From: Candidatus Cloacimonadota bacterium
GTDB lineage: Bacteria; Cloacimonadota; Cloacimonadia; Cloacimonadales; Cloacimonadaceae
DNA: 50,248 nt
NCBI GenBank assembly: GCA_018433885.1
Contig: JAHDQK010000065.1
Span: forward strand, 1-50,248
Reading direction: 5' to 3'
Below, piece by piece: positions 241 through 41,971 of this stretch; position 1 is the first letter of the stretch; every line of letters starts with the position of its first letter. Both the position numbers and the translations under genes were made by a program. Under the pieces are notes generated by a model, which worked only from the letters and a program-made list of their open reading frames with translations, did no database searches and was not told the DNA's origin.

Positions 241-287
241 TTCTTTTTACAGTTGCTCTGTAAACCTAAATGTCAGAAGAGGGGAAA

Positions 288-3200: not shown

Positions 3201-4568
3201 TCCGAAGCAGATGGCGGTATCCTGTGCTTACATAACAGCTCAAACTTGCCGGACTCTTGGGAGTATAAGATATTCAAAAACTTCTCGGCGGAAGATAAAG
3301 ACTATTCCACGATGATGAATTTATGTAGCGAGATGCACCGGGAAAACAAGTTACAAAACTACAAACAACCGCATTTTGCCTCATCCTATAACAACATCCT
3401 GCTTTTGCCGCTTTCGATCCGTAAGAATAACCTGGGAGTAGTGCTCCTCTTCTGTAAAAGCGGCTCCCACTATTTCAGCGAACGGATTATTAACCTTCTA
3501 AACGCGCTCTCAAACCAGATCATCGTGATCATCGAAAACATCCGTAGCGCAAATCTGGAAAAGACCCACGCTACCATCCGCGAGCAGCTTCACGAAGGAA
3601 ACCTGTATGCCAATATCATTGGCAAAAGCCCAGAAATGATGAAAATCTTCGAGATCATCGAAAAAGTGAAGGATACCCCCACAACGGTGCTTTTGGAAGG
3701 CGATAGCGGGACGGGTAAGGAATTGATCGCCAGAGCCTTGCATTATAGCAGTAACCGCGCCAACAAGGCTTTTGTAGCCCAATATTGTGGTGCGCTACCG
3801 GAAACTCTTTTAGAAAGCGAACTCTTTGGGCATGTAAAAGGCAGCTTCACCGGGGCAGCTTACGATAAAAAAGGCCTGTTTGAGATCGCCGACGGAGGGA
3901 CCTTCTTCCTGGACGAGATCTCGGATATCAGCCAATCTACCCAAGCCAAACTTCTACGCTTCCTCCAAGAAGGCGAAGTGAAACGCGTGGGTTCCACAAA
4001 GACGGAAAAAGTAAACGTGAGAGTGGTTTGCGCAACCAATGTACCTCTTCTGGAAAAGGTGAATAAAGGCGATTTTAGGCTGGATCTATACTATCGCTTG
4101 AATGTGATCCGCATCCAGGTTCCGCCGCTTAAAAACAGACCCGGAGATGTGCCTCTCTTGGCTATCCACTTCTTAGATAAATTCAACAAAAGGATAGGCA
4201 AAAACGTGCTTGGCTTCACTGAAGACGCCATGAAGACCCTGGAAAACTATGAGTTTCCGGGCAATGTCCGCCAATTGGAAAACGAGATTGAACGCGCGGT
4301 AACTTTGGTAGAAGACAACACTTTCATCCAATCCAAAGACTTCTCTGAAGAAGTTCACAGACACCGCGAACACAGCCAGACCATCGACCTTCTGAGTAGC
4401 AAGAAGAACCTGAAAGAAGCGGTGGAAGAACTAGAACGACAGATGATTATGGCTTGTATGGATAAATATGATTGGAACCAAACCCAAGCTGCCCGCGAAC
4501 TGGGACTTTCACGTCAGGGGCTGATCAAGAAACTGCAACGCTACAACCTGATGCGAGAGGATGGATGA
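288..4568 (+). CDS. Giant TPR signalling protein: N-terminal NTPase, TPRs, GAF, sigma54 AAA+ activator, Fis HTH
   Basis: A sigma54-dependent transcriptional activator of unusual size (1426 aa). The N-terminus carries a second P-loop NTPase of STAND/AAA type (GKSGSGKS at residues 39-46, then a hydrophobic strand ending in LIIDDCD as Walker B). The middle is built of many tetratricopeptide repeats (NNLG and YNNLGxxY units, roughly 400-900). A GAF-like segment follows (about 940-1085). The RNA-polymerase-activating AAA+ domain has GDSGTGKE (1138-1145) and the sigma54 contact loop as GSFTGA (1185-1190) instead of GAFTGA. A Fis-type helix-turn-helix ends the protein (about 1397-1418). An in-frame ATG at 270 exists, but only 288 has a Shine-Dalgarno (AGAGGGG), so I chose 288. 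The stop overlaps the next start (ATGA). TPR and GAF suggest a protein- or ligand-sensed input; the signal is unknown. Confidence 0.93.
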   Translation: MPEKLYQKMHEFVSDRFDLTRVLELLKDKSRSHLLEITGKSGSGKSYLIQPIISALEASYPEIRYFSPRPLYFNHLPELVKLLTGLSENDQIELYEEHFSRYRTGNKHDFFYYFTEQLLKRELLVPMVLIIDDCDVLDEYSRDFLQYLVQYASDAAIQIVVLSQKRIFPFSVVETLPALDAEAIQKLLVTVFPGTHTSYISEGEILHKISGGNLMIMERIFKEMRNTKPKGGFDLSPYLEKTYDPHEIYYQNLQELTSVQSELLTAMYILDGLAQYEIEEALGGKSISGEIKILVERGILAKAEDGFVVQKKQAFGLWLYEDPQRLSPALIKKLTTYLKKQDFHKQVLLQLNIQSQQSNARLFDEMLHLFTLLSDSGSCLKIYEYLLSISKNPKDKLLYTTKIGECYSDMAQKEKAVDYYRQGLHICTESNLPAEEIVYRLSHNLYAVNSSNFALEIIKKYSPATIDEYWKARILLLKGDILAESEKFNEAFETLDNVLHNMSAIEDPHKRYLVQAEAKKIRGKIHYYINEWDQSEEAFKESETMYALADDHAGLAAIYNNLGVLYMFQGDWEKSESFFLKSLGIEKEYYNLNGISVCFNNLGGLMDDKGDASRSLYYLEEALKIQQLLSEPYNITNIYNNIGVTMMDHGDYERAEEALKKSLETAIEFNFFRNTVASLNNLGALSFKKGDWKGSTTYYEKAIKLSEENGFGEGLLRSYNNLGEVYEKSNELNLAYDLYFKGLELLPGVSDEYIKAELYGNLGSVLTKLHKFKEAYRYLMESFDFFKALGARDKIIEGCQNQAYYFIMTHNADSADYFLNEAFKLATEQQNEFEIGWTHYLRALLERKNLESAKEHLDEAIKYFVATTNHYELSLANYELAEVLLDMEDWEQALQILKNNKKIIQQYGSIRLLEQNDILMQRISREYSNQMQEIKFEENLLNQFYEITQKLNTITDLDLIIDQSLTSLIEISEADGGILCLHNSSNLPDSWEYKIFKNFSAEDKDYSTMMNLCSEMHRENKLQNYKQPHFASSYNNILLLPLSIRKNNLGVVLLFCKSGSHYFSERIINLLNALSNQIIVIIENIRSANLEKTHATIREQLHEGNLYANIIGKSPEMMKIFEIIEKVKDTPTTVLLEGDSGTGKELIARALHYSSNRANKAFVAQYCGALPETLLESELFGHVKGSFTGAAYDKKGLFEIADGGTFFLDEISDISQSTQAKLLRFLQEGEVKRVGSTKTEKVNVRVVCATNVPLLEKVNKGDFRLDLYYRLNVIRIQVPPLKNRPGDVPLLAIHFLDKFNKRIGKNVLGFTEDAMKTLENYEFPGNVRQLENEIERAVTLVEDNTFIQSKDFSEEVHRHREHSQTIDLLSSKKNLKEAVEELERQMIMACMDKYDWNQTQAARELGLSRQGLIKKLQRYNLMREDG

Positions 4569-24047: not shown

Positions 24048-27000
24048 ATGCGTCGTCCCCGCAAGTTTCTGATTTTGATCATTTTTCTTTTAGTGGTCAA
24101 CGCACTTTTTTTCAGTGTCTGGTATCCTCTAGGGGGCAGAGACTTTGCGCGGAACTATCTGGCGGGGGTTTTAGGTTCATTGACGAACTCCAAGATCGAG
24201 ATCGGAGATCTTCATCTCAGCGACAAACAGATATTGATTCAGGATTTTAGTTTCGCTTCCAGCGATAGCTTGATCGATCTGAAGGTCAGTAGCTTAAGGC
24301 TACGCTACAATCTATATAAACTGATTCTTTCCGGGTTCAAGCCACGCAACGTGGTATCCTCCATCGAAATAATCGAACCAGTGGCAACCATTCGATATCA
24401 TGCTAAAAGCGATCCTGAAAAAAAGAAGAAATCCCGAGGGGAACCATTCAAAATTCCCGATCTTGCTGGGTATTTTAAGAGCATCAGTATCGAACAAGGG
24501 TCAGTATCTGCAGATCTGGCGTTTGAGATTAAGATAATCAATCAGGCACCTTTGGTAATCGAAGAAAGCCTCTCAGAGATCGAGTTAAGGGTGTTAAACG
24601 GCAATGAAACATCGCTTAGCCTCTCGGCAGTATCCGCGTTGGGAGGAGTAATAAACGTAGAAGGAACTTTGGATAAAGGAAGGATAGCTTCTGCCAAAGC
24701 GGAGATTGAGGATCTGAAACCACTCTACATTTCACATCCGGACATCCGCGATTTTCGCACAGAGATCAATATTAACGCTAGCTACAGCGAACCAGCCGAT
24801 GGCTCAGAGCCACTAATTGATGGGCAGGCATTTATCTGGAACACTACGGCTTATGCCATAGAACGTTACAGGGTCAGAATTCCTTTGATAGATTTGAAAA
24901 CCGACGGCAATGACGCCAGACTAAGTATCTCCCGATCGCGCATCGGAGAGAGCAGCCTGCTGGCAGAGCTTATCGTAAAAGATATATTTGGTGATTTCGT
25001 TTTTGATGGCTCTTCTGCTTCCTTTAGTTTGAATGCTTCGGATATCATTCCCGAGTTAAACGGATTGGTGGATGCATCCATAGTGGCATCTGGCACTATC
25101 AAAGAGCCCAATGCAAAACTGAATGCTCGAGGTTATCGCTTTGCCTATCAGGATTGGGCTTTGGAAGATTTTGATATCCAAGCAAGCTATCAAGATGGCG
25201 AAGCTAAGCTGCAAATACCACAGTCTCGCTGGAAAAACCAAGCTTTGGAACTAAGTGGCAATTTTGTTCCCAAAACCATGAGTTTTTTAGCAGAACTAAA
25301 AACCAACCCGATAAACACCAAGAATCAAGACCTTGTGGCAAAGGGCTCTCTGACCGTGGCAGGGGTCATTCTCAAAACATATCCCTTGATATCCATCATT
25401 CTTGATGATGTAGATGTAAGCTACAGGGATTTATCCCTGAAGGGTATTAATGGTAGCGGAAGCCTGGTGCCCACAGAAGACGCTCTGCTTGCTAGTGTTG
25501 ATCTTGAATCCTCCGAAGGATACAGAGTAAATGCCGTAGGAGATGTGCTTAGCCGACATATCTCCGCCGATGTGGAATTCAGTGATTTTCTTCCCGCAGG
25601 ATTGTACGATCAAAATGTTCTATCAAAACTTGCTCCCATGGTATCCGGAAAGATTAGCGGAATCATGACGGGCAACGATATCTGGTATAGGGGAGATCTT
25701 CAAACCAGACTCTTGGGAGATTTTAATTATCGGGGAGAACTGGATCTTTTGGGTAATGTGAATATCATGAATCCCTCGGTGATAGCTACTCTCAATGCCA
25801 AAAACTCCTTTTTCAACGATCTTCCTGCTGATTTCAACTTAAATATGGATTACCAGAAAGAAAGGATCAAGATAAGCTCTTTTAAACTGGAAGATATGCT
25901 AAATCTTTCTGGTGAGCTGACGCTGAATGATCTTTGGGATTCCAAATTGGATCTTGCTTTGCGCAATATCGATTCTGCCAGAATCACCAAATACTATCCT
26001 GATATTGCCCATTTCATCCCGGAATTCGATACCATGAATTTGTTTGCCCGCTACAATCAAAATCGAGATCAGAAGATAAACGCCTGGTTACATCTTAAGA
26101 ATATCGATCTGTTGAGTGTGATCCCCCTAAACCTGAACCTGTTTTTAAAGGGTGATATGCAAGAGCTTGCTGTTTCCGGAAACATCAAGAACGGCAACCA
26201 AACTCTACTCCTGTTAAATGGCAAGAGCTCTTTGCGTCCCCGGATCAACCTTGCTCTGGAAGCAAGAATGAATGATCTTAGAATGCAGGAAGTGCTTACA
26301 TATCCCCCTGGTAAAGCAAGTATCAGCGGAACTGCGGGGTTAAGCATCTCAGATGCCCTGGCGAAGAATCCCGATATGGAGATCTCTGCCGATCTCAACG
26401 TAAAAGATATGCAGTTCGGTGATTTCCAGATAGACCATGCCAGAGTGAAAGCTGCTCAGTTAAGCCGGGCTTTGGTGGTGGATTCTCTGTATGTAAGTGC
26501 CAAGGATTTGTTCACTGCCACAGCGAAAGGCTCGCTGGATTACAACGCTGTGCAAAATGCCTTCTATGAAGGTAGCCGAAGCTTGGAGATAAGCGCGCAA
26601 GGTGAGCTTTTCCCCTGGTTGAAAACGCTCACAAGTTACATCCAGGAATCCCGCGGGAGTTCCAAGGTTCAGCTAACCTTAAGTACATCTGATGATCAGT
26701 TTATGATAAAATCTGGAGCTATTGATCTGGATCAAGGCTATGTTCATCTCAAGGATCAGGTGGAACCCATGCGGGACATCAGGATTCAAGGTGTATTCGA
26801 AAACAATAGGTTCATGATCCAGCGCGGAACCTTCAACATGGGCAACGGTAGTTTCTACTTGAGCAATCTCTTTGATCCAGAGCAAACGGATCATTTTATG
26901 ATCAGTTTTGTGGATCTTGGTTACTTCCGAGTGCTGATAGAAGAACCAGGAATTCAAGCCACCATCCCCGTAATCGCCCCGCCCCTGACTCTCACAAATG

Positions 27001-28124
27001 TGGCTATTCGAGGTTTGGATGGACGCTACGCTACGATCCGCGGACCCTTTGACGATATGAACATCGAAGCGCTAGTTACCACTTCGAATCTGGATATCTT
27101 GTTTCCTCCGGGAGCAGATAACCTACTAAATCTCATCATGTCTGTACGTGGAACCGGCAAGAAGCCAGATACCGACCCAGTGCCTTTGCCATTCAAGCTG
27201 GATCTCCGGGTGATCATCGGTGAGAACGTCCGTTATGTAACGTATCCCACAAATCTATATCTTGCACCTGGCGGTTTCCTGCATATCAGATACGATGGAA
27301 GCAGATTCATCGTAGAAGAAGCCAATATCGTGTCCGACCGGGGATCTATTGATTTCTTTGGCACCGTGTTCCAAGTGGATAACATCGCCATTACCATGAT
27401 TGATCAACAGAACATCCTCAGCGTAAACGGCCAGTTCTATAAGCGCACTCCAGATGGAAGTACTATCCTACTAACTGTAAACTCCAGTCCTGAGTACGAC
27501 AAGGGATTTTTCGATCGTCTCCAGATCAACCTTTCCAGCGATAACCCCCAGGATCAGAGCATCGCTCAAGTACTTTCCCGCCTGCGTTACAACCAGAGCA
27601 TGGATGAACTCCCCAACGATCAGAAGCAAAATCTGTTACAGGACGAAGCTCTGGGTTTGATCGGAGGAAATCTCAATTCCACTGTTCTTACTCCGTTCTT
27701 CTATCCATTTGAGAACTGGGTACGTAGAACCTTGAAGCTTGATGGTTTCTCGATCAACGCGGGCTTTATCCAGAACATATTTACCGAGTACTCGGCAAAT
27801 CCATCGCAACTGGCGGATATGACAGATCTTTCCAATTTGTCGTCGGACATTACCCAGTTTTCATCCTCCATACTGCTGAACAACCTCTCAGTATCGATGA
27901 GCAAATATTTGGGATACAGACTATTTGCGGATTACTCTCTACAGTTGCAGGAAGCTACTGATCTCCAACAGAAAACCAAGCTTCTTGTTTCTCACGACAC
28001 AAGTCTACGTTTGGTGTTGCCGCGTCAATTCAGAGTGGGCTACACCCTGAACTATTCACCCAAAGACACCGGGCTCACGCACGAGATTATGCTACAAAAA
28101 TCTTGGCGATTCTGGGGTTTTTAA
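24048..28124 (+). CDS. tamB: TamB-family translocation/assembly module protein
   Basis: A 1358-aa inner-membrane-anchored periplasmic protein. One membrane helix (about 6-25) is followed by an AsmA/TamB-type repetitive beta-rich body and the conserved C-terminal DUF490 domain, recognisable in DNPQDQSIAQVLSRLRYN, LQDEALGLIGGNLNS and a final beta-hairpin region ending in SWRFWGF. TamB-like proteins bridge the periplasm and support outer-membrane protein or phospholipid transport. No TamA/BamA partner is in the window. Directly following the LolC/E and LolD genes, it makes this an envelope-biogenesis operon. The neighbouring gene is convergent, 10 bp away, and no clear terminator separates them. 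Confidence 0.92.
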   Translation: MRRPRKFLILIIFLLVVNALFFSVWYPLGGRDFARNYLAGVLGSLTNSKIEIGDLHLSDKQILIQDFSFASSDSLIDLKVSSLRLRYNLYKLILSGFKPRNVVSSIEIIEPVATIRYHAKSDPEKKKKSRGEPFKIPDLAGYFKSISIEQGSVSADLAFEIKIINQAPLVIEESLSEIELRVLNGNETSLSLSAVSALGGVINVEGTLDKGRIASAKAEIEDLKPLYISHPDIRDFRTEININASYSEPADGSEPLIDGQAFIWNTTAYAIERYRVRIPLIDLKTDGNDARLSISRSRIGESSLLAELIVKDIFGDFVFDGSSASFSLNASDIIPELNGLVDASIVASGTIKEPNAKLNARGYRFAYQDWALEDFDIQASYQDGEAKLQIPQSRWKNQALELSGNFVPKTMSFLAELKTNPINTKNQDLVAKGSLTVAGVILKTYPLISIILDDVDVSYRDLSLKGINGSGSLVPTEDALLASVDLESSEGYRVNAVGDVLSRHISADVEFSDFLPAGLYDQNVLSKLAPMVSGKISGIMTGNDIWYRGDLQTRLLGDFNYRGELDLLGNVNIMNPSVIATLNAKNSFFNDLPADFNLNMDYQKERIKISSFKLEDMLNLSGELTLNDLWDSKLDLALRNIDSARITKYYPDIAHFIPEFDTMNLFARYNQNRDQKINAWLHLKNIDLLSVIPLNLNLFLKGDMQELAVSGNIKNGNQTLLLLNGKSSLRPRINLALEARMNDLRMQEVLTYPPGKASISGTAGLSISDALAKNPDMEISADLNVKDMQFGDFQIDHARVKAAQLSRALVVDSLYVSAKDLFTATAKGSLDYNAVQNAFYEGSRSLEISAQGELFPWLKTLTSYIQESRGSSKVQLTLSTSDDQFMIKSGAIDLDQGYVHLKDQVEPMRDIRIQGVFENNRFMIQRGTFNMGNGSFYLSNLFDPEQTDHFMISFVDLGYFRVLIEEPGIQATIPVIAPPLTLTNVAIRGLDGRYATIRGPFDDMNIEALVTTSNLDILFPPGADNLLNLIMSVRGTGKKPDTDPVPLPFKLDLRVIIGENVRYVTYPTNLYLAPGGFLHIRYDGSRFIVEEANIVSDRGSIDFFGTVFQVDNIAITMIDQQNILSVNGQFYKRTPDGSTILLTVNSSPEYDKGFFDRLQINLSSDNPQDQSIAQVLSRLRYNQSMDELPNDQKQNLLQDEALGLIGGNLNSTVLTPFFYPFENWVRRTLKLDGFSINAGFIQNIFTEYSANPSQLADMTDLSNLSSDITQFSSSILLNNLSVSMSKYLGYRLFADYSLQLQEATDLQQKTKLLVSHDTSLRLVLPRQFRVGYTLNYSPKDTGLTHEIMLQKSWRFWGF

Positions 28125-28134
28125 GATAGCATAA

Positions 28135-29472
28135 TCAGAAAAGAACCTTTACTCCAACGGCTACAGAGCGCTTGGTATCCTTCCACCAGTTAATTCCGCC
28201 TTCTTTGTCCTTGTATTTCTCGGAATATTTACCGATCACAAACCATCGGCGTTTGGAGCCCAGACCCACAGTAGCGCTGGCAGACATATTGGCACGTGGT
28301 ACAGCTACCTTCCCTAAGTTGAGTTCGCCCACGTTTGTCTTGCTATAAGCGAAAGCTACGTTCTCCAAGCGTTTGTAGCGAGTATCCACATTCAAGGTAA
28401 ACCACATCGATTTACCATTTTTAAGGTCATCTCCATACATGTTTTGCCAAGCAAACATCGCTTTTATCCGTTCCGCGATTACTCCTTGAACTTTCCCATA
28501 GAATCCATAGCTCGATTTTCTTTGTTGCAAGGCTTCTTCTTTGGTGATCAGATACGGAGTGCCATCTGGCAAAGTATCCTGAACGGCCCGTTCTTCTTCG
28601 TAGTGATAATCGAAATATCCGGGCTCGAAGCGATCTCCGTTTGTGCGATACTCAAGATTCACTTTAAGGTAACCAAAATCTGCATAAACACCGGGAAGTA
28701 TGCTTCCGGTTCCGTTGTCGATCATATGAGCAAGCTCGGAATATATGCCATACTCCGCTTTCTCTGTGCGTTTTAGCGGTTGATTATAGTCAACCGAAAC
28801 AATAGTAACTGCGTCCTTTTTCTTGGGGATCAGATAATCCAGCTCATCCGGCAAAGTGTGCCGCATGTTCGAATATTGGTTTCGGTCGGCAAAGACAGAA
28901 AAGCCGATATGAGCTTGATCCAAGATCTTCAGCGTGGAATCCGGTAAAGGCTTGAACCTTGTCTGCAAACTCAGGATGTCGTTTTTTAGGATATCCGAAC
29001 TAAATATCTCTATCTCCGGTTCAAACATCACAGGTATCTTGCCCCCAATGAGAAGTCCATTGTGACGTAGATCCGGATAGTAATACATGTTTGAGTAATT
29101 CAGCATTATCAGCCCATTGCCGACAGAGTATCTGGGAAATCCTCCGATATGAAAGTGTAAGGGATCTTCGGTCTCTGCGTAACGGAAGTAATAGATCTTC
29201 TCCAGAACGTTTTCCAGATGATCCCAATCGCTTTCCCTGAGATGATAATTCTTATTAAACAAGAAATCCAGATCGAGCCCCACTCCCCATTTCTTATAAT
29301 TAAATTCCTGGATCAACCTGATTTGGGTATATCGAACCGAATCGACCTCTACTTTTCCAAACATGGTTGACGAGCTATATCTTGTGCTGGATTTCACCGA
29401 AAAAGGCATATCTTGTGCCAAAACATAGATCGGTACAAACATCAAAAACAAAGGGATCAATTTCCTGAGCAT
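28135..29472 (-). CDS. Signal-peptide beta-barrel-like protein of unknown function
   Basis: A 445-aa secreted protein with a signal peptide (about 1-19, ending VLAQ). The mature part is rich in alternating aromatic and polar residues (FHIGGFPRYSVGNGLIMLNY, KSMWFTLNVDTRYKRL) and ends with a hydrophobic strand finishing in VGVKVLF; a terminal phenylalanine is typical of outer-membrane barrels. I do not recognise a named family. It has its own promoter (29501-29529) and a GAGGTG ribosome binding site six bases before the ATG, and is a single-gene unit. Confidence 0.75.
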   Translation of the reverse strand: MLRKLIPLFLMFVPIYVLAQDMPFSVKSSTRYSSSTMFGKVEVDSVRYTQIRLIQEFNYKKWGVGLDLDFLFNKNYHLRESDWDHLENVLEKIYYFRYAETEDPLHFHIGGFPRYSVGNGLIMLNYSNMYYYPDLRHNGLLIGGKIPVMFEPEIEIFSSDILKNDILSLQTRFKPLPDSTLKILDQAHIGFSVFADRNQYSNMRHTLPDELDYLIPKKKDAVTIVSVDYNQPLKRTEKAEYGIYSELAHMIDNGTGSILPGVYADFGYLKVNLEYRTNGDRFEPGYFDYHYEEERAVQDTLPDGTPYLITKEEALQQRKSSYGFYGKVQGVIAERIKAMFAWQNMYGDDLKNGKSMWFTLNVDTRYKRLENVAFAYSKTNVGELNLGKVAVPRANMSASATVGLGSKRRWFVIGKYSEKYKDKEGGINWWKDTKRSVAVGVKVLF

Positions 29473-32309: not shown

Positions 32310-32984
32310 TTAGAAAGCGATGTCTCTATTGAGAAAGTACACTTTTGCAGCCTTTGTGATTATTTCCAGGTAATCAAGGGCTTCATCAAGATCGTTTGCA
32401 AAGGCAAGAAGTCCGTGTCCCGACCAGATCAGCGCTTTCTGATTCGTGAGAGCCAGCGAGCTTAATTCGCATAATTCGAGGGATCCCGGAGCGGCTCTGG
32501 GAGCAAGGGCAATACCTTCTGGAAGATACAGGGGTAATTCCGGCAACAGCTCTGCCAGAACCTTGTTCAACTGAATGGGATCCTGCGCAAGGGGCAGGTT
32601 TGAAAGAGCGATGATTTCTGCCGGATGAGTATGCAAAACGATCTTGAACCGCTCGTTGGACATCTGCAAACAGCGATGGCTAAGCCACTCCATGGTAGGT
32701 TTGGCATCTTCTGGAAAGTAGTTGTCCTCGGTCTCGGAACACGCAATCAAAACCATGTTGTCCCTCGGTTCAAGGGCAGTTTGCCGGTATCTGCTTCCGG
32801 TTCTGGATACCAGAAACCATTTGTGATCGCTAAACATATACTGTTTGATCGTCTCTGTGATATCGATGCTGAGGTTTCCAGCATTTGCTTCTGCCCAGCC
32901 ATAGCTGTGGATCAAGCGCGATATCTCCGCAACCTTCTTGAGAGTGTTCTGATGGATTGGATGTTTCAGGTCGGTGATCTGCAT
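32310..32984 (-). CDS. Class II aldolase, RhaD/FucA-like
   Basis: A 224-aa zinc-dependent aldolase-fold protein. Visible family elements are NAGNLSID near residue 37, the zinc ligands in LHTHPAEI and SGHGLLAF, and a glutamate in LPEGIALAPR. This layout resembles rhamnulose-1-phosphate aldolase more than adducin. No kinase or isomerase of a deoxysugar pathway is adjacent, so the substrate is open. The frame is open far upstream (to 33218), but that part overlaps the ligase gene; the ATG at 32984 overlaps the ligase stop as TGATG. Its presence at the end of the large membrane operon is odd. Confidence 0.78.
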   Translation of the reverse strand: MQITDLKHPIHQNTLKKVAEISRLIHSYGWAEANAGNLSIDITETIKQYMFSDHKWFLVSRTGSRYRQTALEPRDNMVLIACSETEDNYFPEDAKPTMEWLSHRCLQMSNERFKIVLHTHPAEIIALSNLPLAQDPIQLNKVLAELLPELPLYLPEGIALAPRAAPGSLELCELSSLALTNQKALIWSGHGLLAFANDLDEALDYLEIITKAAKVYFLNRDIAF

Positions 32985-34516
32985 CAGTCTTTGTTCTTGG
33001 TATTCTTTTCGCGGCAGATTTTTTCCACTTCCCGGAAATTGACCTTGCCACTTGCCATCATCGGGATATCTTCGATAACATAAAATTGCTTGGGTACCGC
33101 AATGGCGGGAAGTTCTTTCTTTAGCTGTTTCAGCACTTTGTTTATATCGAAATCGCCATTGGCGACCGCTGCCACCACATCCGCTCCTTTGGTGGGATTT
33201 GGCACATCTACCACGCAACAGATCACGTTTTCCGGCAGGAGCTCGCTGAGGTGTTCTTCCACTTTCACCAAAGAGACCATTTCCCCGCCCACTTTTACGA
33301 AGCGTTTCAAGCGTCCTTTGTGATAGAGGAAGCCATCGTCGTCGATCAAACCGATATCCCCGGTATCATACCAGCCGTTACGAATCCGCAGCGAGGTTTG
33401 TTCCAAATCGTGCAGATAGCCTTCCATTACGAGATCTCCCTTTACGAAGATCTTTCCTTCTTGATTTGGCCCCAAGATTTTATCTGTATGAATATCCAAT
33501 ATCCGAACCTGGGTATTGGGAATGGGTCTGCCAACACTGCCCGGTTTATGATTTCCCGGATAGCAGGTGGATATCACAGGACTTGTCTCGGTAGTACCGT
33601 ATCCCTCATACATGGTAAGCTTATGTTTCTTCAAGAAACCTTCATAGACTTTATCGGGAAGCTTGTCTGCTCCGGCTATGGCGATTTTTACGGATTTAAA
33701 ATCCCCGGGGTTGGATTTTTGCAGATAACCATAGAAGAAGGCAGGGGTGGCGGCTATAAAAGTAACCTTGTAATCCCGGATATATTCGCACACAGTGCGG
33801 TATTCCAAGGGATTAGGGTAAGTAACCATGCTGGCTCCGATGAGAGCCGGAAGCCAAAAATCCACAGTGAGACCAAATACGTGAAACATCGGAAGGATGG
33901 AGGCAAATACGTCGTTTTCGTCCAGATGGATCATGGTGGGGAAAGCGTTCACATTATGCAGAATGTTCTTGTGAGATAGCTGAACGGCTTTAGGTTCCTT
34001 TTCGCTGCCTGAGGTAAAGAGGATTACGGAGATCTCGCTAAGATCGCCATGGTGAACCATATTTTGGAGGATGCTAAAAGGAAGCTTGGAAGTAAGTGCG
34101 GCTTTGATCTTTGCCGCAAAGGTCACGCTGGAAAGGATGTCTTCCACAAAAATCATGTGGTCGATGGGCTGCAAACCCAGTTTATCAAGGAGCTTCTTGC
34201 TGGTGATAATCGTCTTGAACTGGCATTTTTCGCGGGCGTAGAGACAGTTCTCGATGGCACCCGTGGCGTAGTTGATCATCACGGGGACTTTACCCTTCAT
34301 CAGCGAACCGAGGATCGTGAGCATCGCTCCCACTCCGGTGGGCAATAAAATGCCCACGTATTTGCCGCGTATCTTTGCTATGTGTTCTTTCAGGATCAGA
34401 CTTGCGATCAGCATCCTGGAATATGTGTAGTCTTGCATGGTTGCTTTGTCGTGAACGGCAATCCGCTTGGGAAAGCGTTTGGCAGATTGAATGAAGCGTT
34501 GATGTAGTTGTAACAT
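32984..34516 (-). CDS. AMP-forming acyl-CoA/acyl-ACP synthetase-like ligase
   Basis: A 510-aa ANL-superfamily enzyme that would activate a carboxylic acid as an acyl-adenylate. Motifs: ILFTSGSEKEPKAV (phosphate loop), YGTTETSPV, GWYDTGDIG, GRLKRFVKVGGEMVS (hinge) and the catalytic lysine in MASGKVNF. The loop with SGSEKEPK and the order of motifs recall the acyl-ACP synthetase domain of Aas-type enzymes, so a fatty-acid or lysolipid substrate is the best guess. I use the ATG at 34516 (MLQLHQRF, AAGGA upstream); the in-frame ATG at 34552 lies inside the previous gene. It starts 14 bp after the membrane-protein quartet. Confidence 0.85.
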   Translation of the reverse strand: MLQLHQRFIQSAKRFPKRIAVHDKATMQDYTYSRMLIASLILKEHIAKIRGKYVGILLPTGVGAMLTILGSLMKGKVPVMINYATGAIENCLYAREKCQFKTIITSKKLLDKLGLQPIDHMIFVEDILSSVTFAAKIKAALTSKLPFSILQNMVHHGDLSEISVILFTSGSEKEPKAVQLSHKNILHNVNAFPTMIHLDENDVFASILPMFHVFGLTVDFWLPALIGASMVTYPNPLEYRTVCEYIRDYKVTFIAATPAFFYGYLQKSNPGDFKSVKIAIAGADKLPDKVYEGFLKKHKLTMYEGYGTTETSPVISTCYPGNHKPGSVGRPIPNTQVRILDIHTDKILGPNQEGKIFVKGDLVMEGYLHDLEQTSLRIRNGWYDTGDIGLIDDDGFLYHKGRLKRFVKVGGEMVSLVKVEEHLSELLPENVICCVVDVPNPTKGADVVAAVANGDFDINKVLKQLKKELPAIAVPKQFYVIEDIPMMASGKVNFREVEKICREKNTKNKD

Positions 34517-34530
34517 ATATCCATATTTCC

Positions 34531-35169
34531 TTATGTAATAATGTGCAGCCAATCTCTGAGCAGAAATTCCAATCTTCCGATCAATAGAGATACCCTAGCC
34601 ATCACCGTATATCCGAAGGTCGCGCCGAAGCTGACCATTAGAAACCAAATGCCAATCTTGGAAGGAATCTGGAATATCCCCTCTTGTTTTTTACTGAAAT
34701 AAAAGAAGTAAACTCCCGTAACCGTCCCGATGATCAGTAGCAGATTACCCACTACACCCGCAGCATCCGGAGCAGAGAAGGGATTGATCATGGTGGCGGT
34801 CACTTGCTCCAAGATGTCGCTCTTCATGTATCTGAGCATCGAGATTCCAGCCGTTGTACCGATCATGATCGAGATCGGATATCGGCTAAGCCATTGCGTT
34901 TTGGGGTGCAGACGCATCAACATCATCAAGCCAAGACCGGCTGGGATGAGGAGGATGGCATTCCCGGAAAAATCCTCGATCAGTTTTGTAAAGAGGTTTG
35001 GCATCATAATGGAATAGATGATGTAAACCAGCCAGTAGGCAGCGGAAAGACCCACAAAGATCTGTTCCGAAAGCTTATAGAACGGGTTGTCCTTATATAA
35101 AAAACTGAAGATGCTAATGGTGAAAAAGGCAGCGATCCAAATTCCGAAGACATTCATAAAGCTAATCAT
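34531..35169 (-). CDS. Conserved-looking integral membrane protein, subunit 4 of a coupled quartet
   Basis: A 212-aa protein with about five or six hydrophobic segments and short loops; the N-terminus is a hydrophobic helix (MISFMNVFGIWIAAFFTISI). I do not recognise a family. Its start overlaps the previous stop by four bases (ATGA), as do the next two junctions upstream, so the four proteins are translationally coupled and probably assemble into one membrane complex. Confidence 0.75.
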   Translation of the reverse strand: MISFMNVFGIWIAAFFTISIFSFLYKDNPFYKLSEQIFVGLSAAYWLVYIIYSIMMPNLFTKLIEDFSGNAILLIPAGLGLMMLMRLHPKTQWLSRYPISIMIGTTAGISMLRYMKSDILEQVTATMINPFSAPDAAGVVGNLLLIIGTVTGVYFFYFSKKQEGIFQIPSKIGIWFLMVSFGATFGYTVMARVSLLIGRLEFLLRDWLHIIT

Positions 35170-35990
35170 GAGTTCTGCCTCCTTTTGTTGCGGAAAGCTC
35201 TGTAGTTACCCAATCCGATAAAGACGAGGATCAGTAGATGAGCGATAGACTGCGCATCCATTTTGGTGGTTGCCGAACCCAGTCTGCCGATCAAGCTCTC
35301 ATACTCGCTGGCACCCTTGAGGCCTCCCAAAAGGCCGTAGAGCTGACGTTGCTCGTTCACATAGGGAAAGAATCCCGGTGCGCTGATCGCCGTGCATCCG
35401 CCGGTTACCGGCACCTGATAATTGTCTCGCGCCACCATCATCCATTCTTTGATTCCGGGAACTCCGCTGGAAAGTGAGCTGATCCACGCTACATCCTTGA
35501 GTCTGCGCACATTCTTGAGCATGGGGATATCTTGATAAGCTGTATTCTGATTATCTGTGGGATACACTTCCATCAAGTTTCGTCCCATGGCTTGCACCGT
35601 AACCATGCCCCCAACTTTGTAACCGAGGTTCACGAAGTCCTCTCCGCGTTTTTTCTCCGGATAGTCCAGAAGTACCTTGGTAAAAGCTTGTTCTGCCATT
35701 TGCACACCCATAGGCCACAACGCGGTGGCGATCACTTTCTGATTTCGTTTCCAAGCGTGTTCTATCATGGCTTCTGCCATTGGTTGCAGCTCGGTCATAG
35801 TAGAAGGGTCGTAATCAAAGGATACTATCACCACTTTGTCTTCCGGGGTGGTCTCCACTAGCTCATAGACAATCCGGGTGTAGTCCGAAACCTCCGTAGT
35901 CCAACCGATGGGGAAGATCAAAGGCAGAGCAACGGCAAGCAGCAATACGGAGTATATGATTCTTCTTTCAACGATAGCCGTGAGCTTCAT
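35166..35990 (-). CDS. Membrane-anchored protein with large extracytoplasmic-type domain, subunit 3
   Basis: A 274-aa protein. One hydrophobic helix near the N-terminus (about 11-29) and one near the C-terminus (about 245-262) bracket a soluble domain of roughly 210 residues with a Rossmann-like beginning (DKVVIVSFDYDP) and ATALWPMGVQMAE. The topology suggests a domain on one side of the membrane held at both ends. A conserved-looking stretch VTGGCTAISAPGFFPYVN occurs near residue 200. I cannot name it. ATGA overlaps link it to both neighbours. Confidence 0.75.
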   Translation of the reverse strand: MKLTAIVERRIIYSVLLLAVALPLIFPIGWTTEVSDYTRIVYELVETTPEDKVVIVSFDYDPSTMTELQPMAEAMIEHAWKRNQKVIATALWPMGVQMAEQAFTKVLLDYPEKKRGEDFVNLGYKVGGMVTVQAMGRNLMEVYPTDNQNTAYQDIPMLKNVRRLKDVAWISSLSSGVPGIKEWMMVARDNYQVPVTGGCTAISAPGFFPYVNEQRQLYGLLGGLKGASEYESLIGRLGSATTKMDAQSIAHLLILVFIGLGNYRAFRNKRRQNS

Positions 35991-36685
35991 TTTTCACCTC
36001 CCAGATAACTGCGTTCGATTCCCAGGATGATGCGTAGTGAACTGCCTACAATGCCCAATCCGGCAGAGATCAGAATGGCTCTTTGGGCGGCAGAATTGGG
36101 GTATTCCATGATGAAATCTGCAAGAATGGGGAAGTGCCAGAACTGCATGGATTCCGGCAACCACCCGGTAAGCATTGTCCCGATGCTGGTTCTGCCGATT
36201 ATCACGATCACAGCGGTGATCATCAGCAGATTGGACTCCAACCCGCGAATGATAAACGCACGGTATGCAGCGGATGCGATGAAGAATGCCAGCAGTGAGA
36301 ACAAGGTAGCAGAAAGCGGCATATAGGCGTTTGTAAAAAGATAGTCGAAGGGTTTTGCTCCCAACCAAGAGGAGATTCCTTCTCCGCTGCCTAACAGGCC
36401 GGGAGTTTCCTGCATTCCCCAGAGGATTCCGAAGATCAACATCAGGGCAAAGCTGATCAAACCTGCAAGATAATATTGCCAATCGGGAAGCTTGTTCACG
36501 ATCTTGTGGGTATTCATGCGAATCAAGCTGATTTGACCCAAAAGGATGGCAAAGCCGCTGATGATCATGAACCACTGTTCCAAGGTCGAAACAATTTGGT
36601 TGAAGGGACGGTGGGGGATGAATTCCGAGAGAATCACCACGAAACCTACCAAGAAGGCAAGGATCAAAGGTAATGAGCGTTTCAT
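35987..36685 (-). CDS. Integral membrane protein, subunit 2 of the quartet
   Basis: A 232-aa polytopic protein with about six membrane segments, starting with a basic N-terminus and a long hydrophobic helix (LPLILAFLVGFVVILSE). Polar loops include the segment MQETPGLLGSGEGISSW. No family recognised. The start overlaps the preceding gene's stop (ATGA) and its stop overlaps the next start, so it is the second gene of the strictly coupled quartet. Confidence 0.75.
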   Translation of the reverse strand: MKRSLPLILAFLVGFVVILSEFIPHRPFNQIVSTLEQWFMIISGFAILLGQISLIRMNTHKIVNKLPDWQYYLAGLISFALMLIFGILWGMQETPGLLGSGEGISSWLGAKPFDYLFTNAYMPLSATLFSLLAFFIASAAYRAFIIRGLESNLLMITAVIVIIGRTSIGTMLTGWLPESMQFWHFPILADFIMEYPNSAAQRAILISAGLGIVGSSLRIILGIERSYLGGEK

Positions 36686-37776
36686 GAGCTTGCCCCCGCG
36701 ATAAAGTCTTTTAAAACCGAGATGCCGAAGATCTCTAAAATAACACCCACAATGATCAGAATGATAACCATCAGTTTGCCAAAATCGTGACCTTTCAGGC
36801 TACCCAGTTGTTGGGGATCTTTGGAAAGATACGCAGAGGCGGCAAATAGCTCTTCTCCGATCAGAGTATAATCGCAACTAACTACAAAGAAAGGCAATTG
36901 ATGCGCTTGGGCGGTTCCTGCAGTTTGGATTGCGCCAGTAGCAAAGCCAGTTTCAGCCAAGATCAGTGACTCTGCATAGAAAGAACCCATAAAGAAGTTT
37001 GCCGCGGGTTTTTCACGTAGCATAATTCCATCGATACCTGCAACGTATCCAAATTGATCATCAGTGAGGTAAAAAATATTTTCCGCTTTGTAGGCATCTG
37101 GTCTGCCTGCTTTGATATAAGCCTCTTTCACCACTTCTTTGGCTGCAGATAGCACCATAGAAAAGCGGCAGGGAACTATCAGTTCAGTATTATATTCAGC
37201 ACTGCGTTCTGCAAGATGACTAAGAATCGTGAGACTGGCAATAGTTTGGATATCATCAAGATCGCTGATTCCCGGTACATAGAGGATAGGGCGCCCTTTC
37301 TCCGTGGCTCTGCCGATGGCTTCTTCCATGCTATCCAATCCAGCAATCCGGCGAATATAGAATTCCTTACCCCGCCGCGCAGACTGGATGTAGTATATGA
37401 TAGCGATACATACAATTACCAGCAGAATCAGAAAACCCAATTTGCGCATATAGAACCATTGTTCCCGGGTGGTAGCGGTGGTCTCCAGGCTCAGAGTATC
37501 TTCGTCGAACTGAGCGATCAACCGATAATGATGTTCGTGATTTACTTCCAAAGCGCTATCTACAAACTCTCCTTCCGGTAGAGTTGTATTTAGTACTGTG
37601 ACGATGTTCTCAGAATCGGTGATTCTCTGGATTTGGACATTGCGCGTCATGGGGCTTAGTTTCCAGTTCAGGATTATCGCCTTTCCGTCGTCCCAAGGGC
37701 TGTCCATGGCGGTGAAGCTGTTTGCATATAGCCCCCAGCTTATGAAGATCAAAAAGATAAGCAAACCAGCTTTCAT
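36682..37776 (-). CDS. DUF6754-like membrane protein, subunit 1 of the quartet
   Basis: A 364-aa protein: signal-like helix (1-19), a fibronectin-III-like extracytoplasmic region (about 22-105, including AIILNWKLSPM), a membrane helix (113-130), a soluble domain on the other side (about 140-330, with RPILYVPGISDLDDIQTIASL, TELIVPCR and GSFYAESLILAETG) and a C-terminal helix (335-356). This arrangement resembles proteins annotated DUF6754; I name it from memory and cannot search. It begins 119 bp after the lipoprotein gene and is coupled to three membrane proteins. Function unknown. Confidence 0.75.
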   Translation of the reverse strand: MKAGLLIFLIFISWGLYANSFTAMDSPWDDGKAIILNWKLSPMTRNVQIQRITDSENIVTVLNTTLPEGEFVDSALEVNHEHHYRLIAQFDEDTLSLETTATTREQWFYMRKLGFLILLVIVCIAIIYYIQSARRGKEFYIRRIAGLDSMEEAIGRATEKGRPILYVPGISDLDDIQTIASLTILSHLAERSAEYNTELIVPCRFSMVLSAAKEVVKEAYIKAGRPDAYKAENIFYLTDDQFGYVAGIDGIMLREKPAANFFMGSFYAESLILAETGFATGAIQTAGTAQAHQLPFFVVSCDYTLIGEELFAASAYLSKDPQQLGSLKGHDFGKLMVIILIIVGVILEIFGISVLKDFIAGASS

Positions 37777-37833
37777 AGGCTGTCTCCTTTAGTCAACATT
37801 CGTGTAAGCGGAGTATTAAGCAGGAAGCACGAA

Positions 37834-37878
37834 CGCGGAATCCCAAACTTGCCAGTCTGCATGCCTGGGATTTCCGCG
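37834..37878 (-). other. Long inverted repeat in the lipoprotein/quartet gap
   Basis: CGCGGAATCCCA (37834-37845) pairs with TGGGATTTCCGCG (37866-37878) with one bulge and a 20-base loop. It lies between the lipoprotein stop and the quartet. No T-run follows on the minus strand, so it may be a processing, stability or weak-termination signal that separates the ABC/lipoprotein part from the quartet. Confidence 0.5.
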
Positions 37879-37895
37879 CTTGTAATGATCATGGA

Positions 37896-38693
37896 TTATT
37901 CTTGAAAAGTGGCTTTAATGGCTTCGGTTTTTGCGATAATCTGTTCAATTTGTTCTTTGGTATAGGTTCCGTCTTTATCGTTATCGAGTATCGCTTTAAG
38001 TTCTTCAGTTTGGGTTACAGCTTTAACAAACGCTGCCTGTTCTGTGATGTGTGGGGTTTTAATCTGTTTCAGGTTGTTCAACAGGTGATTGAAGGTGCCT
38101 TTTTGAGCGAGCACTGAAGTTCTGGTCGTTTCGTAGTTCTGGTTTATCAGCCATGCTATGCGATTTGCAGCTTCGATCCATCCTCCCATCAGCATGAGGG
38201 TATAGTTGTCGAAGTTCTCGCTTTCCCAAAGCTTACTCTCCACATCGTCTTTATGGAAATCAAGCGCTTTATCGAGTTCTTCCCATTGTTCCTTCTCGAT
38301 CATGCTCTTCATGTTGTCACCCAGACGGTTTACTTCGCTCTCCAAACCCAGAAGGCTAGTAAGAGTCATCATTTGAGCAGAGATATCACTAAGTTTGCCT
38401 TTATTTCTACCCTTGGCTGCCAAAACTGCGTCGGCTGTAAGCAATCCTAGGGAAAAGGCATTGCGCACCTCTTCCTGCTTTGTTTTGTAGGTGGTGGTGG
38501 GAACCGCGGCAGAGATGTCCTTCACTTGTACCTGATCCAAAGTGCTATAGACCTCTTTGAATGAGGGAAGCGGGGCAAATGTGGTTACCTGTTGTGCAAT
38601 ATCCTGATCCGGAAGCTGCTCTGCCTTTCTCTTACAGGCAAATGAGAATAACATCAGGACCAGTACCAAGGCGATGATCAAGCGAGTCTTCAT
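37896..38693 (-). CDS. Lipoprotein of unknown function
   Basis: A 265-aa secreted lipoprotein. A basic start and hydrophobic helix end in LFSFAC, giving a lipobox with cysteine 20, followed by KRK. The rest is predicted helical, hydrophilic and without recognisable motifs (for example EKEQWEELDKALDFHKDDVE). It is 11 bp downstream of the giant ABC transporter and thus probably its periplasmic partner. A lysine-rich +2 region gives no Lol-avoidance aspartate, so outer-membrane sorting is possible. Confidence 0.75.
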   Translation of the reverse strand: MKTRLIIALVLVLMLFSFACKRKAEQLPDQDIAQQVTTFAPLPSFKEVYSTLDQVQVKDISAAVPTTTYKTKQEEVRNAFSLGLLTADAVLAAKGRNKGKLSDISAQMMTLTSLLGLESEVNRLGDNMKSMIEKEQWEELDKALDFHKDDVESKLWESENFDNYTLMLMGGWIEAANRIAWLINQNYETTRTSVLAQKGTFNHLLNNLKQIKTPHITEQAAFVKAVTQTEELKAILDNDKDGTYTKEQIEQIIAKTEAIKATFQE

Positions 38694-38704
38694 GTTTATA
38701 CTCC

Positions 38705-41700
38705 TTATTCTTTGAAATAAAATTTAAGTTTCAGCCAAGTGATCATGTTCAAGCACAAAGCATAGAGCAAGATAATCACGGCATTAAAGTTCCAAGTTCG
38801 GTGTTCCTTTTCGCTTAGTAATTTGTAGCTAGAAAGAAACTCGTTTCTCTTGTTGTTTAAAACTCTCCCGTCCATCATGCTCACGGAAGAGTTCAAATAG
38901 CTATTCAGTATGAGGTTGGGATCCCACCTCTCAGCAAGGGCGGTCTTGGCATAATACACCTCTGAACGCCTCGTCTGAAACTCTTCATAACTAATGGTAG
39001 CATTCCTGTAATTTGCTAAATATGTCAATTCCTTTTTTTGGATGTGAGCTAAAGACCTATGGAACCTGGTGTTTTTGGCATAAGCCGTGGTGAGTCCCTC
39101 AAACAGCCAGCGCGAGGGTATTACTTGCACAATCTCCGGTACTGGGTGATTTTCATACAGCTTGAGGTTTCGGTTCATGCGTTCAAACTCTATCACAGCC
39201 CCCCCAAAGATGATCTGGGGAATCAGGATCAAGGGCAGAAGGTTGATAATGGCTCTGTTCTCTTTGATAAATGCGGAACTAAGCAAGCCTAGAGAGTTGC
39301 CAATCAAGGTGGCAAGAAAGAAATATAATATACTGTAGTAGTCCAGACCTCGGATCTTGAGCACCTGCGCGGCAATCACATGATACAAAATAGCTTGGAT
39401 CAAGCCAAATAGAGAAAGAGTAAGTATTTTCGAGAAATGATAACTGCTCATCTTCAGGTTCATCAGTTTTTCGCGCAGGATGATCTTGCGTTCAGAAAGT
39501 ATCTCCTCTATGGAGTTGGACATTCCCAAAAAGATAAAGGCTATGATCGAGACGAAGATGTAGATGAACACATTGTTGTTTTCGTGATAACTGTATATTC
39601 CGGTGGGGGTAGCACGCAGGATGAAGGAGATGATCAAGCCCAATAGGGGAGCCTCGATGAAAGTGATCAGATTATTGGTATGGTTGCGGATCTTCATCTT
39701 GAAGCTGCGCGAGATAAACACGGAAAGGCTTACCAAGTAAGAGCGCAGACCCAGCGGTTTTTTCACTCGCCTGAGCCCGCTTCCGCGAGGTGTAGGCTCC
39801 AAAACATCGCTGCGGATCAGGTCAAACAGCATTCTACGCTTGAATTTATCCCGCCAGTAATCCGGTGGAAACTTGCGTTTTGTCTTCACTTGTTTGTTAA
39901 TCTGTTCGTAAACCGGTTCCCCCCGAGGTGTGAATTCTGGATAGGTAATGATGTCGTAAAAGTAGTCTGTGGTAAGTAAATGGCGTTTCTTCTCAATTTC
40001 GCTGCGGCGAATGGTGAGCATGCCAAGTTCCTCATCGAAATATGAGAAGCTATCTGCAGGAGTTCCGTAATATGCCAGCTTCCCTCCCATATCCATCATC
40101 ATCACGCGGTCAAACTTCCGGTAAATGCTGCTATTGGGTTGGTGGATCGTGATCATTACGATCTTCCCCTGCTGGCAAAGATAACTTAGGATGTCGATGA
40201 TCTTTTCTGCATCGTTGAAGGAAAGGCCGCTTGTGGGTTCGTCACAGATGATGATCGTGGGTTCAAAGAGCAGCTCCAACGCGATATTAAGTCTCTTGCG
40301 CTCTCCGCCACTCAGGTTTTTAGTCTTTTGATCTCCCACGATGGTATCCCGATGATGGCTGAGGTTTACCTGGTTCAAAATGTTATTTACCTTTTGCTTA
40401 AGCATCACGGGTTGGATGTGGGGCATGCGGAGGCGGATTCTGTACCACAGGTTCTCATAGACGCTGAGGTTGGGATATAGCAGATCATCTTGAGGAACAT
40501 AACCCATATGTTCCAGAAAGTAGTTGATGTTTTCCGAAAGATCCTTGTTATCAATCAGAATTTGGCCGTAAGTAGGGGCAATTTCGCCGGAAAGAACTTT
40601 GGTAAGGGTAGATTTTCCACAGCCGCTTTGACCCATGATCGCGATCAATTGCCCTCTTTGCGCTTCGAAAGATACCGAATCCAGCGCTAGTTTTCCATCC
40701 GGGAAGTAGTGTTTGATGTCTGTTACAGAGATAGTCTCGATCTCAAACGGAGTTTCGACCAGATCATAGAGGTTGTTGATCCTGAAGTTACGTTTTCCGA
40801 TAGTCAAGATGTCCGTATTCAGATTTATGGGAGTTGCTTCGGTTACCACCACCCGGTTCACAAAAAGGTGGAATCCCTTGCGAGGCGGTAAAACATAGTA
40901 GCTGCCTGCTCGTCTCTCTATCACGGCAATGCTGAGTTCGCTCTCTTCCCGGCTTGTGCTGAAATAACCTTTTTCGTAACAGATGTGAAGCTTCTGGGGG
41001 ATGTAGTCGTCCACTCCGATGAATGCCCGGCTCTCGATCACCATTCCCAGGTGGAAAGGCGCGTATCCACGGATCTGTAGAGTATCGTCGTAATACAGTT
41101 CAACCCGCTTTCCATGGCTGATCTCTTTCCCGTTTAGGGCTACTGATCCGCCAGATACAATGATACTGAAACTATTACGCTGTTTATGAACAAGAAAGTC
41201 GTAACTGCTCTTACGGAAAGAAATTTCATCTTCAGCGTCGCGCAGTAAATACATCTTCTCTAGGCAGTTGAATGAATACTCCCTATCTCCTAATTTGATA
41301 TGACTATCTTTGGTGAGCAGGGTAATCGAGTTGCTGGGAACTTCCTTCCCGTTTAAAAGCACATTGCTACTGGCAGCGATGCTTAAGAACAGATGCTTCT
41401 CGATGGCAAAAATCGCACATTCATAAGGACTTAGTTTATCATCTCGAAAGGCGATATCCGCTTGACTACCACTACCAAAGACAACGTAGTCCGAAAACAC
41501 GGAATGACGTAAGTGACTAAGGTGGTGGCGGCAGGGGATGCTTACAGTTTTATTCAGATTGTGCTCGAAATGATCAATCAAGGGCAGGAATTGCTCGGAG
41601 CTAATATTCAAGCTCTTGCCTAGTTCCATGATCTCTGTCAGTTCCGAGATGGCAAATTCTCCTTCCGTCTTTGCCATTATCACCAAGGATTGCATCAAGC

Positions 41701-41971
41701 GTATTTTATCGTACAAGGAAAGATGCCTGTCTAGGTAAACAAGGACTGCCGCAAAGTCGTAATCCGTTTCAACGATTTGTTTTACATAGGCTTCCCAGGA
41801 TACATCCACTTGGGAAAAGAGATTGGTAAGCAAGGAGTAGAGGATGTTGATTTCCGAGCTAGATATCTGATTATCACTCTTGAGGATATGCACATAAAGG
41901 CGGGTAACCATATCAATGGTCTTTTTGAGGCGCTCTTGTGCGTCCCTCCCGAAGGTAGGCCCCTTTAGCAT
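38705..41971 (-). CDS. TerB-like / FHA / ABCG-type ABC transporter fusion
   Basis: A 1088-aa transporter with regulatory domains. Residues 1-140 are helical and resemble a TerB-like domain. Three FHA-like beta segments follow (about 160-235 with VFGSGSQADIAF and NVLLNGKEV; about 250-305; about 340-400), the second and third degenerate. The ABC ATPase has GQSGCGKST (447-455), NLSGGERKR (552-560) and IIICDEPTSGL (573-583). The C-terminal 320 residues form an ABC2-type membrane domain of about six helices. ABCG-type half-transporters with N-terminal FHA domains exist; the added TerB-like domain is less usual. FHA domains bind phosphothreonine, suggesting control by a Ser/Thr kinase. It is the first gene of the apparent eight-gene operon. 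Confidence 0.88.
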   Translation of the reverse strand: MLKGPTFGRDAQERLKKTIDMVTRLYVHILKSDNQISSSEINILYSLLTNLFSQVDVSWEAYVKQIVETDYDFAAVLVYLDRHLSLYDKIRLMQSLVIMAKTEGEFAISELTEIMELGKSLNISSEQFLPLIDHFEHNLNKTVSIPCRHHLSHLRHSVFSDYVVFGSGSQADIAFRDDKLSPYECAIFAIEKHLFLSIAASSNVLLNGKEVPSNSITLLTKDSHIKLGDREYSFNCLEKMYLLRDAEDEISFRKSSYDFLVHKQRNSFSIIVSGGSVALNGKEISHGKRVELYYDDTLQIRGYAPFHLGMVIESRAFIGVDDYIPQKLHICYEKGYFSTSREESELSIAVIERRAGSYYVLPPRKGFHLFVNRVVVTEATPINLNTDILTIGKRNFRINNLYDLVETPFEIETISVTDIKHYFPDGKLALDSVSFEAQRGQLIAIMGQSGCGKSTLTKVLSGEIAPTYGQILIDNKDLSENINYFLEHMGYVPQDDLLYPNLSVYENLWYRIRLRMPHIQPVMLKQKVNNILNQVNLSHHRDTIVGDQKTKNLSGGERKRLNIALELLFEPTIIICDEPTSGLSFNDAEKIIDILSYLCQQGKIVMITIHQPNSSIYRKFDRVMMMDMGGKLAYYGTPADSFSYFDEELGMLTIRRSEIEKKRHLLTTDYFYDIITYPEFTPRGEPVYEQINKQVKTKRKFPPDYWRDKFKRRMLFDLIRSDVLEPTPRGSGLRRVKKPLGLRSYLVSLSVFISRSFKMKIRNHTNNLITFIEAPLLGLIISFILRATPTGIYSYHENNNVFIYIFVSIIAFIFLGMSNSIEEILSERKIILREKLMNLKMSSYHFSKILTLSLFGLIQAILYHVIAAQVLKIRGLDYYSILYFFLATLIGNSLGLLSSAFIKENRAIINLLPLILIPQIIFGGAVIEFERMNRNLKLYENHPVPEIVQVIPSRWLFEGLTTAYAKNTRFHRSLAHIQKKELTYLANYRNATISYEEFQTRRSEVYYAKTALAERWDPNLILNSYLNSSVSMMDGRVLNNKRNEFLSSYKLLSEKEHRTWNFNAVIILLYALCLNMITWLKLKFYFKE

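Follow-up and report, generated by a model that had tools for sequence, protein, structure and literature searches.

This locus raises the question of whether eight adjacent genes of a Candidatus Cloacimonadota bacterium form one system, and what that system would do. The genes lie at positions 32,310 to 41,971 of contig JAHDQK010000065.1 (assembly GCA_018433885.1). The window, by which we mean the whole stretch of DNA analyzed, comprises 50,248 nucleotides and comes from a genome of 2.42 Mb in 91 contigs. An earlier note, made from the sequence alone, had described an operon for an undescribed envelope or lipid-related system, built around four coupled membrane proteins, here called subunits A, B, C, and D (Table 1). 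Comparison with related loci shows that the conserved unit is this quartet and that the four outer genes are not part of it.

Conservation and duplication of the A-B-C-D quartet

Profiles of the eight proteins were built, and more than 100 related loci were read. The contig scan reached Cloacimonadota and one Zipacnadia contig, and recurrence was thus assessed in two phyla. The second phylum was sampled as the 251 genomes of the phylum of locus L053 (Candidatus Zipacnadia, assigned to Armatimonadota by NCBI and far from Cloacimonadota). DUF6754, the domain family of subunit A, was found in 122 of 125 Cloacimonadota genomes and in 220 of the 251 Armatimonadota-phylum genomes. The first survey yielded 59 loci with all four genes (31 Cloacimonadota loci with a short A, 9 Cloacimonadota loci with a long A, and 19 Armatimonadota loci), and every fully covered locus among them keeps the order A-B-C-D.

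Searches of 36 whole genomes with C and D led back to the A loci, and to no other site, in 34 of them; the remaining two, which lack A, gave no match. Unpaired pieces of the quartet sit at or near contig ends. In 58 of 60 loci, the order A..C..D is kept; one exception is a contig break, and the other, in genome G049 (L180:6693–11020), is the sole true reordering seen, to A-B-D-C. The recurrence of the same order across two phyla puts this arrangement well beyond chance. The earlier note had treated the quartet as a single coupled unit and had proposed looking for the same order in other phyla. Both ideas are borne out, since C and D without A were seen at contig ends only, and the order recurs in Cloacimonadota and Armatimonadota with one reordered genome.

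The genome from which the window was taken holds a second quartet, which the earlier note had missed. It is located on contig C66 (L054:8317–16560) and encodes A (975 aa), B (208 aa), C (393 aa), D (200 aa), and a further A-type protein, A′ (917 aa); the gene past A′ encodes a Rex-like protein, named from its sequence. Identities between the second quartet and the window quartet are 44% for A, 36% for B, 32% for C, and 40% for D. Short-A and long-A types form separate clades in the trees of A (built on the DUF6754 core), B, C, and D, with support of 99 to 100, and the pairwise correlations between the distance matrices of the four subunits are r = 0.90 to 0.96. As the same short-A/long-A split appears in all four trees, the quartet seems to have been duplicated as a unit, and the simplest reading would be a single early duplication of the whole quartet within the phylum, after which the subunits diverged together. 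Of these two lines of evidence, the duplication pattern carries more weight, since shared descent contributes to co-divergence as well. A′ is present in several Cloacimonadota genomes, and the A–A′ pair suggests that A may act as a dimer.

Hence, the four genes share their inheritance, losses, and duplication, and their order is kept save for one exception. Genome co-occurrence, gene order, and agreeing gene trees all point in the same direction, and we regard it as very probable that the four proteins form one obligate inner-membrane complex.

Predicted architecture of the four subunits

Subunit A of the window is a full-length member of the DUF6754 family (PF20539; E = 5.5e-125; 416 bits vs a gathering cut-off of 27; profile positions 2–256 of 257), as the earlier note had surmised. 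B, C, and D, which that note could not place, have no significant family. A consists of a signal peptide, one FN3 domain, a transmembrane (TM) helix, the α/β DUF6754 domain, and a second TM helix. In an AlphaFold2 model based on an alignment of homologues (predicted local distance difference test, pLDDT, 92.5), the domain between the TM helices is made up of helices that alternate with six strands. The FN3 domain was matched in the PDB by fold (TM-score 0.78 on the target). As the fold search of A was dominated by this FN3 domain, the DUF6754 fold itself was left unmatched, and a known relative is possible. Profile searches of PDB sequences with A also gave no match, and no relatives of A were found in plasmid and viral collections.

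The first TM helix of A is followed by the run ARRGKEFYIRR, which by the positive-inside rule would place the DUF6754 domain in the cytosol and the FN3 domain outside. The FN3 part ranges from none, in proteins of about 265 aa (L101, L104, and L111), to about 700 residues. With a length so variable, it would be a lineage-specific envelope adaptor rather than the working part, and the conserved work would take place in the membrane and the cytosol. D239, Q241, G264, E269, and D302 are invariant or nearly so and are located after or near the C-terminal ends of β-strands. Such strand ends are the usual ligand site of Rossmann-like folds, and the conserved residues of A may mark a ligand site.

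Subunit C consists of a TM helix, a Rossmann-like domain, and a second TM helix (AlphaFold2 model based on an alignment of homologues; pLDDT 95.9, predicted TM-score 0.90). The models thus show, for A, a conserved α/β domain and, for C, a Rossmann-like domain, each placed between two predicted TM helices. Despite this common plan, profile comparison found no homology between A and C. An ERR motif before the first TM helix and a KRR tail indicate that the Rossmann-like domain of C is probably extracytoplasmic. The fold similarity of this domain to known structures is weak, the best matches being eIF2B subunits and other Rossmann domains at a TM-score of about 0.3, which indicates a fold class and not a relative. 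C has no sequence match in Pfam or the PDB.

B is predicted to have about six TM helices with both termini inside, based on hydropathy and the Lys/Arg profile of 45 homologues, and D about six TM helices, based on hydropathy. Judging from the distribution of charges, B and D would together form a core of about 12 helices. Conservation in D peaks in the last helix, GxxFGxTVMARxSLLIGR, which is almost invariant, rich in Gly, and carries Arg192 and Arg199. Conserved charged residues at or near helices are E35, R192, and R199 in D, and R147, E150, E224, and R225 in B. Profile comparison did not reveal homology between B and D, and profile searches of the PDB found no relatives of either. The window B protein has no Pfam match above the cut-off, and its homologues give only weak, scattered matches. 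Overall, B, C, and D show no convincing match in Pfam and NCBIfam (searched with the window proteins) or in the PDB. Two weak matches, acyltransferase 3/TraX for B and Nramp for D, were rejected as probable chance similarity between hydrophobic proteins.

The quartet can be filed under no known system, in the sense that no relation to one was detectable; structural data may yet point to a known function. The nearest point of contact is DUF6754 itself, of which A is a high-scoring full-length member; this is a Pfam domain without a function, and its three constant partners here belong to no family. ATP-binding cassette (ABC) and other primary transport machines offer a resemblance in outline only, in that the quartet would likewise be a membrane core of several subunits with a domain in the cytosol and, as proposed below, an ATPase there; the conserved unit contains no ABC, P-type, or rotary ATPase, and B and D match no transporter family. 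The type IV pilus platform PilM-PilN-PilO-PilP combines an ASKHA-fold cytosolic protein with small inner-membrane proteins. No sequence relation was seen, and its topology differs, so that it serves as a lead only.

The TIGR04332 protein of poly-gamma-glutamate synthesis is likewise small, membrane-anchored, and encoded with membrane partners. In the genome of the window, it belongs to a poly-gamma-glutamate synthesis locus on contig C55 (L177:6434–9204), which is unrelated to the quartet, and it was present in all 20 relatives tested. A place for the quartet in this system was rejected, given the separate locus and hhalign probabilities against TIGR04332 proteins of 0.5% for C and 0.3% for A.

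A literature search found no work naming DUF6754, PF20539, or PF13941 (subscription journals were mostly outside the search). The earlier note's claim of an undescribed system agrees with this for DUF6754 and fails in the eight-gene extent it gave to the system. The quartet is present in about 98% of the sampled Cloacimonadota genomes and about 88% of the sampled Armatimonadota genomes, and wholly unassigned conserved multi-subunit membrane complexes are few. Presence in two phyla that are only distantly related points to a role that is probably a basic one in the envelope or in transport.

A candidate ATPase module and competing explanations

Armatimonadota quartets adjoin a gene module, also missed by the earlier note, that could supply a partner. 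In one Armatimonadota group, the quartet is directly preceded by genes for c12 (a membrane protein of about 160 aa), c13 (a small helical protein of about 110 aa), a MutL-family protein (PF13941, 4e-126), and a barrel-sandwich (biotinyl-like) protein of about 372 aa. In a second group, c12 and c13 stand before the quartet, and the MutL and barrel proteins are encoded elsewhere. In over 35 Armatimonadota loci, A directly follows the barrel protein gene, which is in turn preceded by MutL and c13 where the locus is long enough. In Cloacimonadota, c13, MutL, and the barrel protein form a separate cluster, located on contig C88 (L143, 3931–7347) in the genome of the window. This genome encodes a second MutL fused to a barrel protein (L144:8904–11804, 966 aa), and in another Cloacimonadota locus, L118, such a fused protein is encoded just upstream of a long-A quartet. 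The c13 protein (1e-29 to 1e-42) is thus found beside the quartet in Armatimonadota and beside MutL-barrel in Cloacimonadota.

MutL is present in 59 of 59 Cloacimonadota genomes. Among the 251 Armatimonadota-phylum genomes, 218 have both the barrel protein and DUF6754, 20 have neither, 11 have the barrel protein only, and 2 have DUF6754 only (11 and 2 genomes empty of matches were restored to these counts via the complement of the full genome list). Fisher's test gives p = 1e-19, a value that overstates independence since kinship within the sample is not given. Based on neighborhood and co-occurrence, it is rather probable that the quartet is functionally tied to the c13–MutL–barrel module, so that the membrane proteins and this putative cytosolic module would act together.

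By Pfam, the putative partner ATPase clearly belongs to the MutL/GlmL family (PF13941; TIGR01319, NF040745), with matches spanning 1e-95 to 1e-127. Four copies retain the phosphate-1 and phosphate-2 motifs of the ASKHA (Hsp70/actin) fold, D[CI]GSTTTK and DIGGATTD, and both MutL copies in the genome of the window keep them. In contrast to MutL/GlmL, its companion is a barrel-sandwich protein, encoded separately or as a fusion, and it is linked to a membrane quartet, not to a mutase.

One possible way in which the parts could work together is as follows. The MutL-type ASKHA protein would bind and hydrolyze ATP, and the barrel protein and c13 would pass the resulting change on to the inner domain of A. 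This domain would then move the B/D core, by which a ligand held by A inside and by C outside would be carried across the inner membrane, or an envelope component would be assembled. We offer this complete chain, i.e., an ATPase-driven inner-membrane machine for transport or assembly, as a tentative proposal that falls somewhat short of being probable, and movement of the ligand or component would be its weakest step. More doubtful is the wider idea of an undescribed type of machine, nearly universal in two or more distant phyla, in which an ASKHA ATPase acts through a barrel-sandwich adaptor on a four-subunit core with α/β domains on both sides of the membrane. If real, the ASKHA link would represent a new way to power a membrane machine and a task for orphan MutL/GlmL-like proteins. 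The prediction is concrete, as it comprises seven genes, four of which encode membrane subunits, with named partners and residues.

Several observations weigh against such an ATPase-driven machine. The transport step is predicted from topology, and no transporter similarity was found for B or D. Genome G020, complete in a single contig, encodes one MutL for its two quartets, and G041 and G045 carry MutL without a quartet. Eleven of the 251 Armatimonadota-phylum genomes have the barrel protein without DUF6754, and the 20 joint absences may represent one clade or few events, or incomplete genomes. In Cloacimonadota, the quartet and the MutL module are usually far apart.

The mismatched numbers of MutL genes and quartets in G020, G041, and G045 would be expected if the quartet were a self-contained membrane enzyme or secondary transporter, in which the cytosolic domain of A binds or converts a small ligand, the outer domain of C binds it outside, B and D carry it by means of an ion gradient, and the MutL module is a mere frequent neighbor with a task of its own. 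The conserved charged residues at or near the helices of D and B, as well as conserved strand-end residues in the α/β domains of A and C, would also fit this explanation. We consider it rather unlikely in view of the tight c13–MutL–barrel–quartet synteny in one Armatimonadota group and the strong co-occurrence in the phylum.

A matched pair of soluble domains, one inside and one outside, a variable outer FN3 arm, and the lack of a catalytic family match could also indicate transmembrane sensing or signaling, in which C senses, B and D transmit, and A answers through the ASKHA/barrel module. This seems improbable, as no known kind of output domain is present, and a sensor would not usually be near-universal in two phyla that differ in their ways of life.

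The earlier note had viewed all eight genes as one system, one reading of which would be a lipid or envelope export operon centered on the FHA-ABC transporter. In the window, the order of the genes and the short distances between them speak for such an operon, as does the ligase, the nearest relative of which is the ligase half of acyl-ACP-phospholipid acyltransferases. Within the family to which the window belongs, the usual order is lipoprotein-A-B-C-D-ligase-aldolase; the lipoprotein gene precedes A in nearly all loci of this family and not in other families, and the ligase is sometimes absent or replaced. The FHA-ABC gene lies upstream in part of this family only, so that linkage to an ABC ATPase is not constant. 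Outside this family, in Cloacimonadota as well as Armatimonadota, the quartet occurs without any of the four outer genes. An eight-gene export operon is thus disfavored and very improbable, and the phospho-regulated export and lipid-related role suggested in the earlier note derive from these outer neighbors alone.

Least probable of all is a cobamide (B12) handling complex, a reading that arises because the MutL/GlmL family is named after the glutamate mutase accessory protein and that draws on the strong Pfam matches given above; the MutL copies score well below the NCBIfam cut-offs for GlmL (222.7 vs 475 bits) and the GlmL family (164.6 vs 204.05), no mutase genes were seen among the neighbors in L143, L144, and L152, a cobalamin riboswitch was not found in 12 sources that included quartet and MutL loci, and the surroundings of the quartet gave no riboswitch clues.

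Layout of the window locus and neighboring genes

Table 1. Positions of the eight genes and of the intergenic hairpin within the window.
Feature	Positions	Strand	Length or remark
Subunit A	36682..37776	-	364 aa
Subunit B	35987..36685	-	232 aa
Subunit C	35166..35990	-	274 aa
Subunit D	34531..35169	-	212 aa
TerB-like/FHA/ABC half-transporter	38705..41971	-	1088 aa
Lipoprotein gene	37896..38693	-	265 aa; lipobox-like FSFAC in sequence
Acyl-ACP/acyl-CoA ligase	32984..34516	-	510 aa
Class II aldolase-family protein	32310..32984	-	224 aa
Hairpin, gap between lipoprotein gene and A	37829..37883	-	fold z = -2.76; no T-run

All eight open reading frames (ORFs) are carried by the minus strand, and the positions, quartet lengths, and junctions reported in the earlier note were recovered. 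ATGA overlaps join A to B (36682–36685), B to C (35987–35990), and C to D (35166–35169). The ligase is better started at the ATG at 34516, 14 bases past the stop codon of D, and its own stop overlaps the ATG of the aldolase (TGATG at 32984). Extra ORFs within the quartet were seen in two Armatimonadota loci, between B and C in L110 (374 aa) and between C and D in L096 (534 aa).

The gap upstream of A is 119 bases long and contains the strong hairpin listed in Table 1, as the earlier note had also reported. The stretch of 131 bases that was folded has a minimum free energy of -38.6 kcal/mol, and 2 of 200 shuffles were equally good. No consensus terminator was called at this site, and without a T-run the hairpin is not a classical terminator.

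Among the outer genes, the transporter matched FHA, ABC_tran, and ABC2_membrane in Pfam, in agreement with the earlier note; the TerB domain also assigned there stayed slightly below the Pfam cut-off (23.6 vs 24.4 bits). The ligase belongs to the AMP-binding family. The aldolase matched Aldolase_II (1.6e-25), and its best NCBIfam match, rhamnulose-1-phosphate aldolase, was below the cut-off. In L042 (13235–14908), downstream of D, an aldolase domain is fused to a pyruvate-kinase-like half, as read from the translated sequence, and a separate ligase is missing. Aldolase ORFs of 555 to 557 aa also occur in L046, L128, and L129; the one in L042 was translated and read.

Just downstream of the eight genes, two ORFs face each other, one at 24048–28124 on the plus strand (1358 aa) and one at 28135–29472 on the minus strand (445 aa); neither protein had a Pfam match at E 0.001. 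Further away in the window, at positions 270–4568 on the plus strand, lies the gene for a regulator of 1432 aa with an N-terminal AAA domain, a long TPR array, a sigma-54 activator domain, and a Fis-type helix-turn-helix domain.

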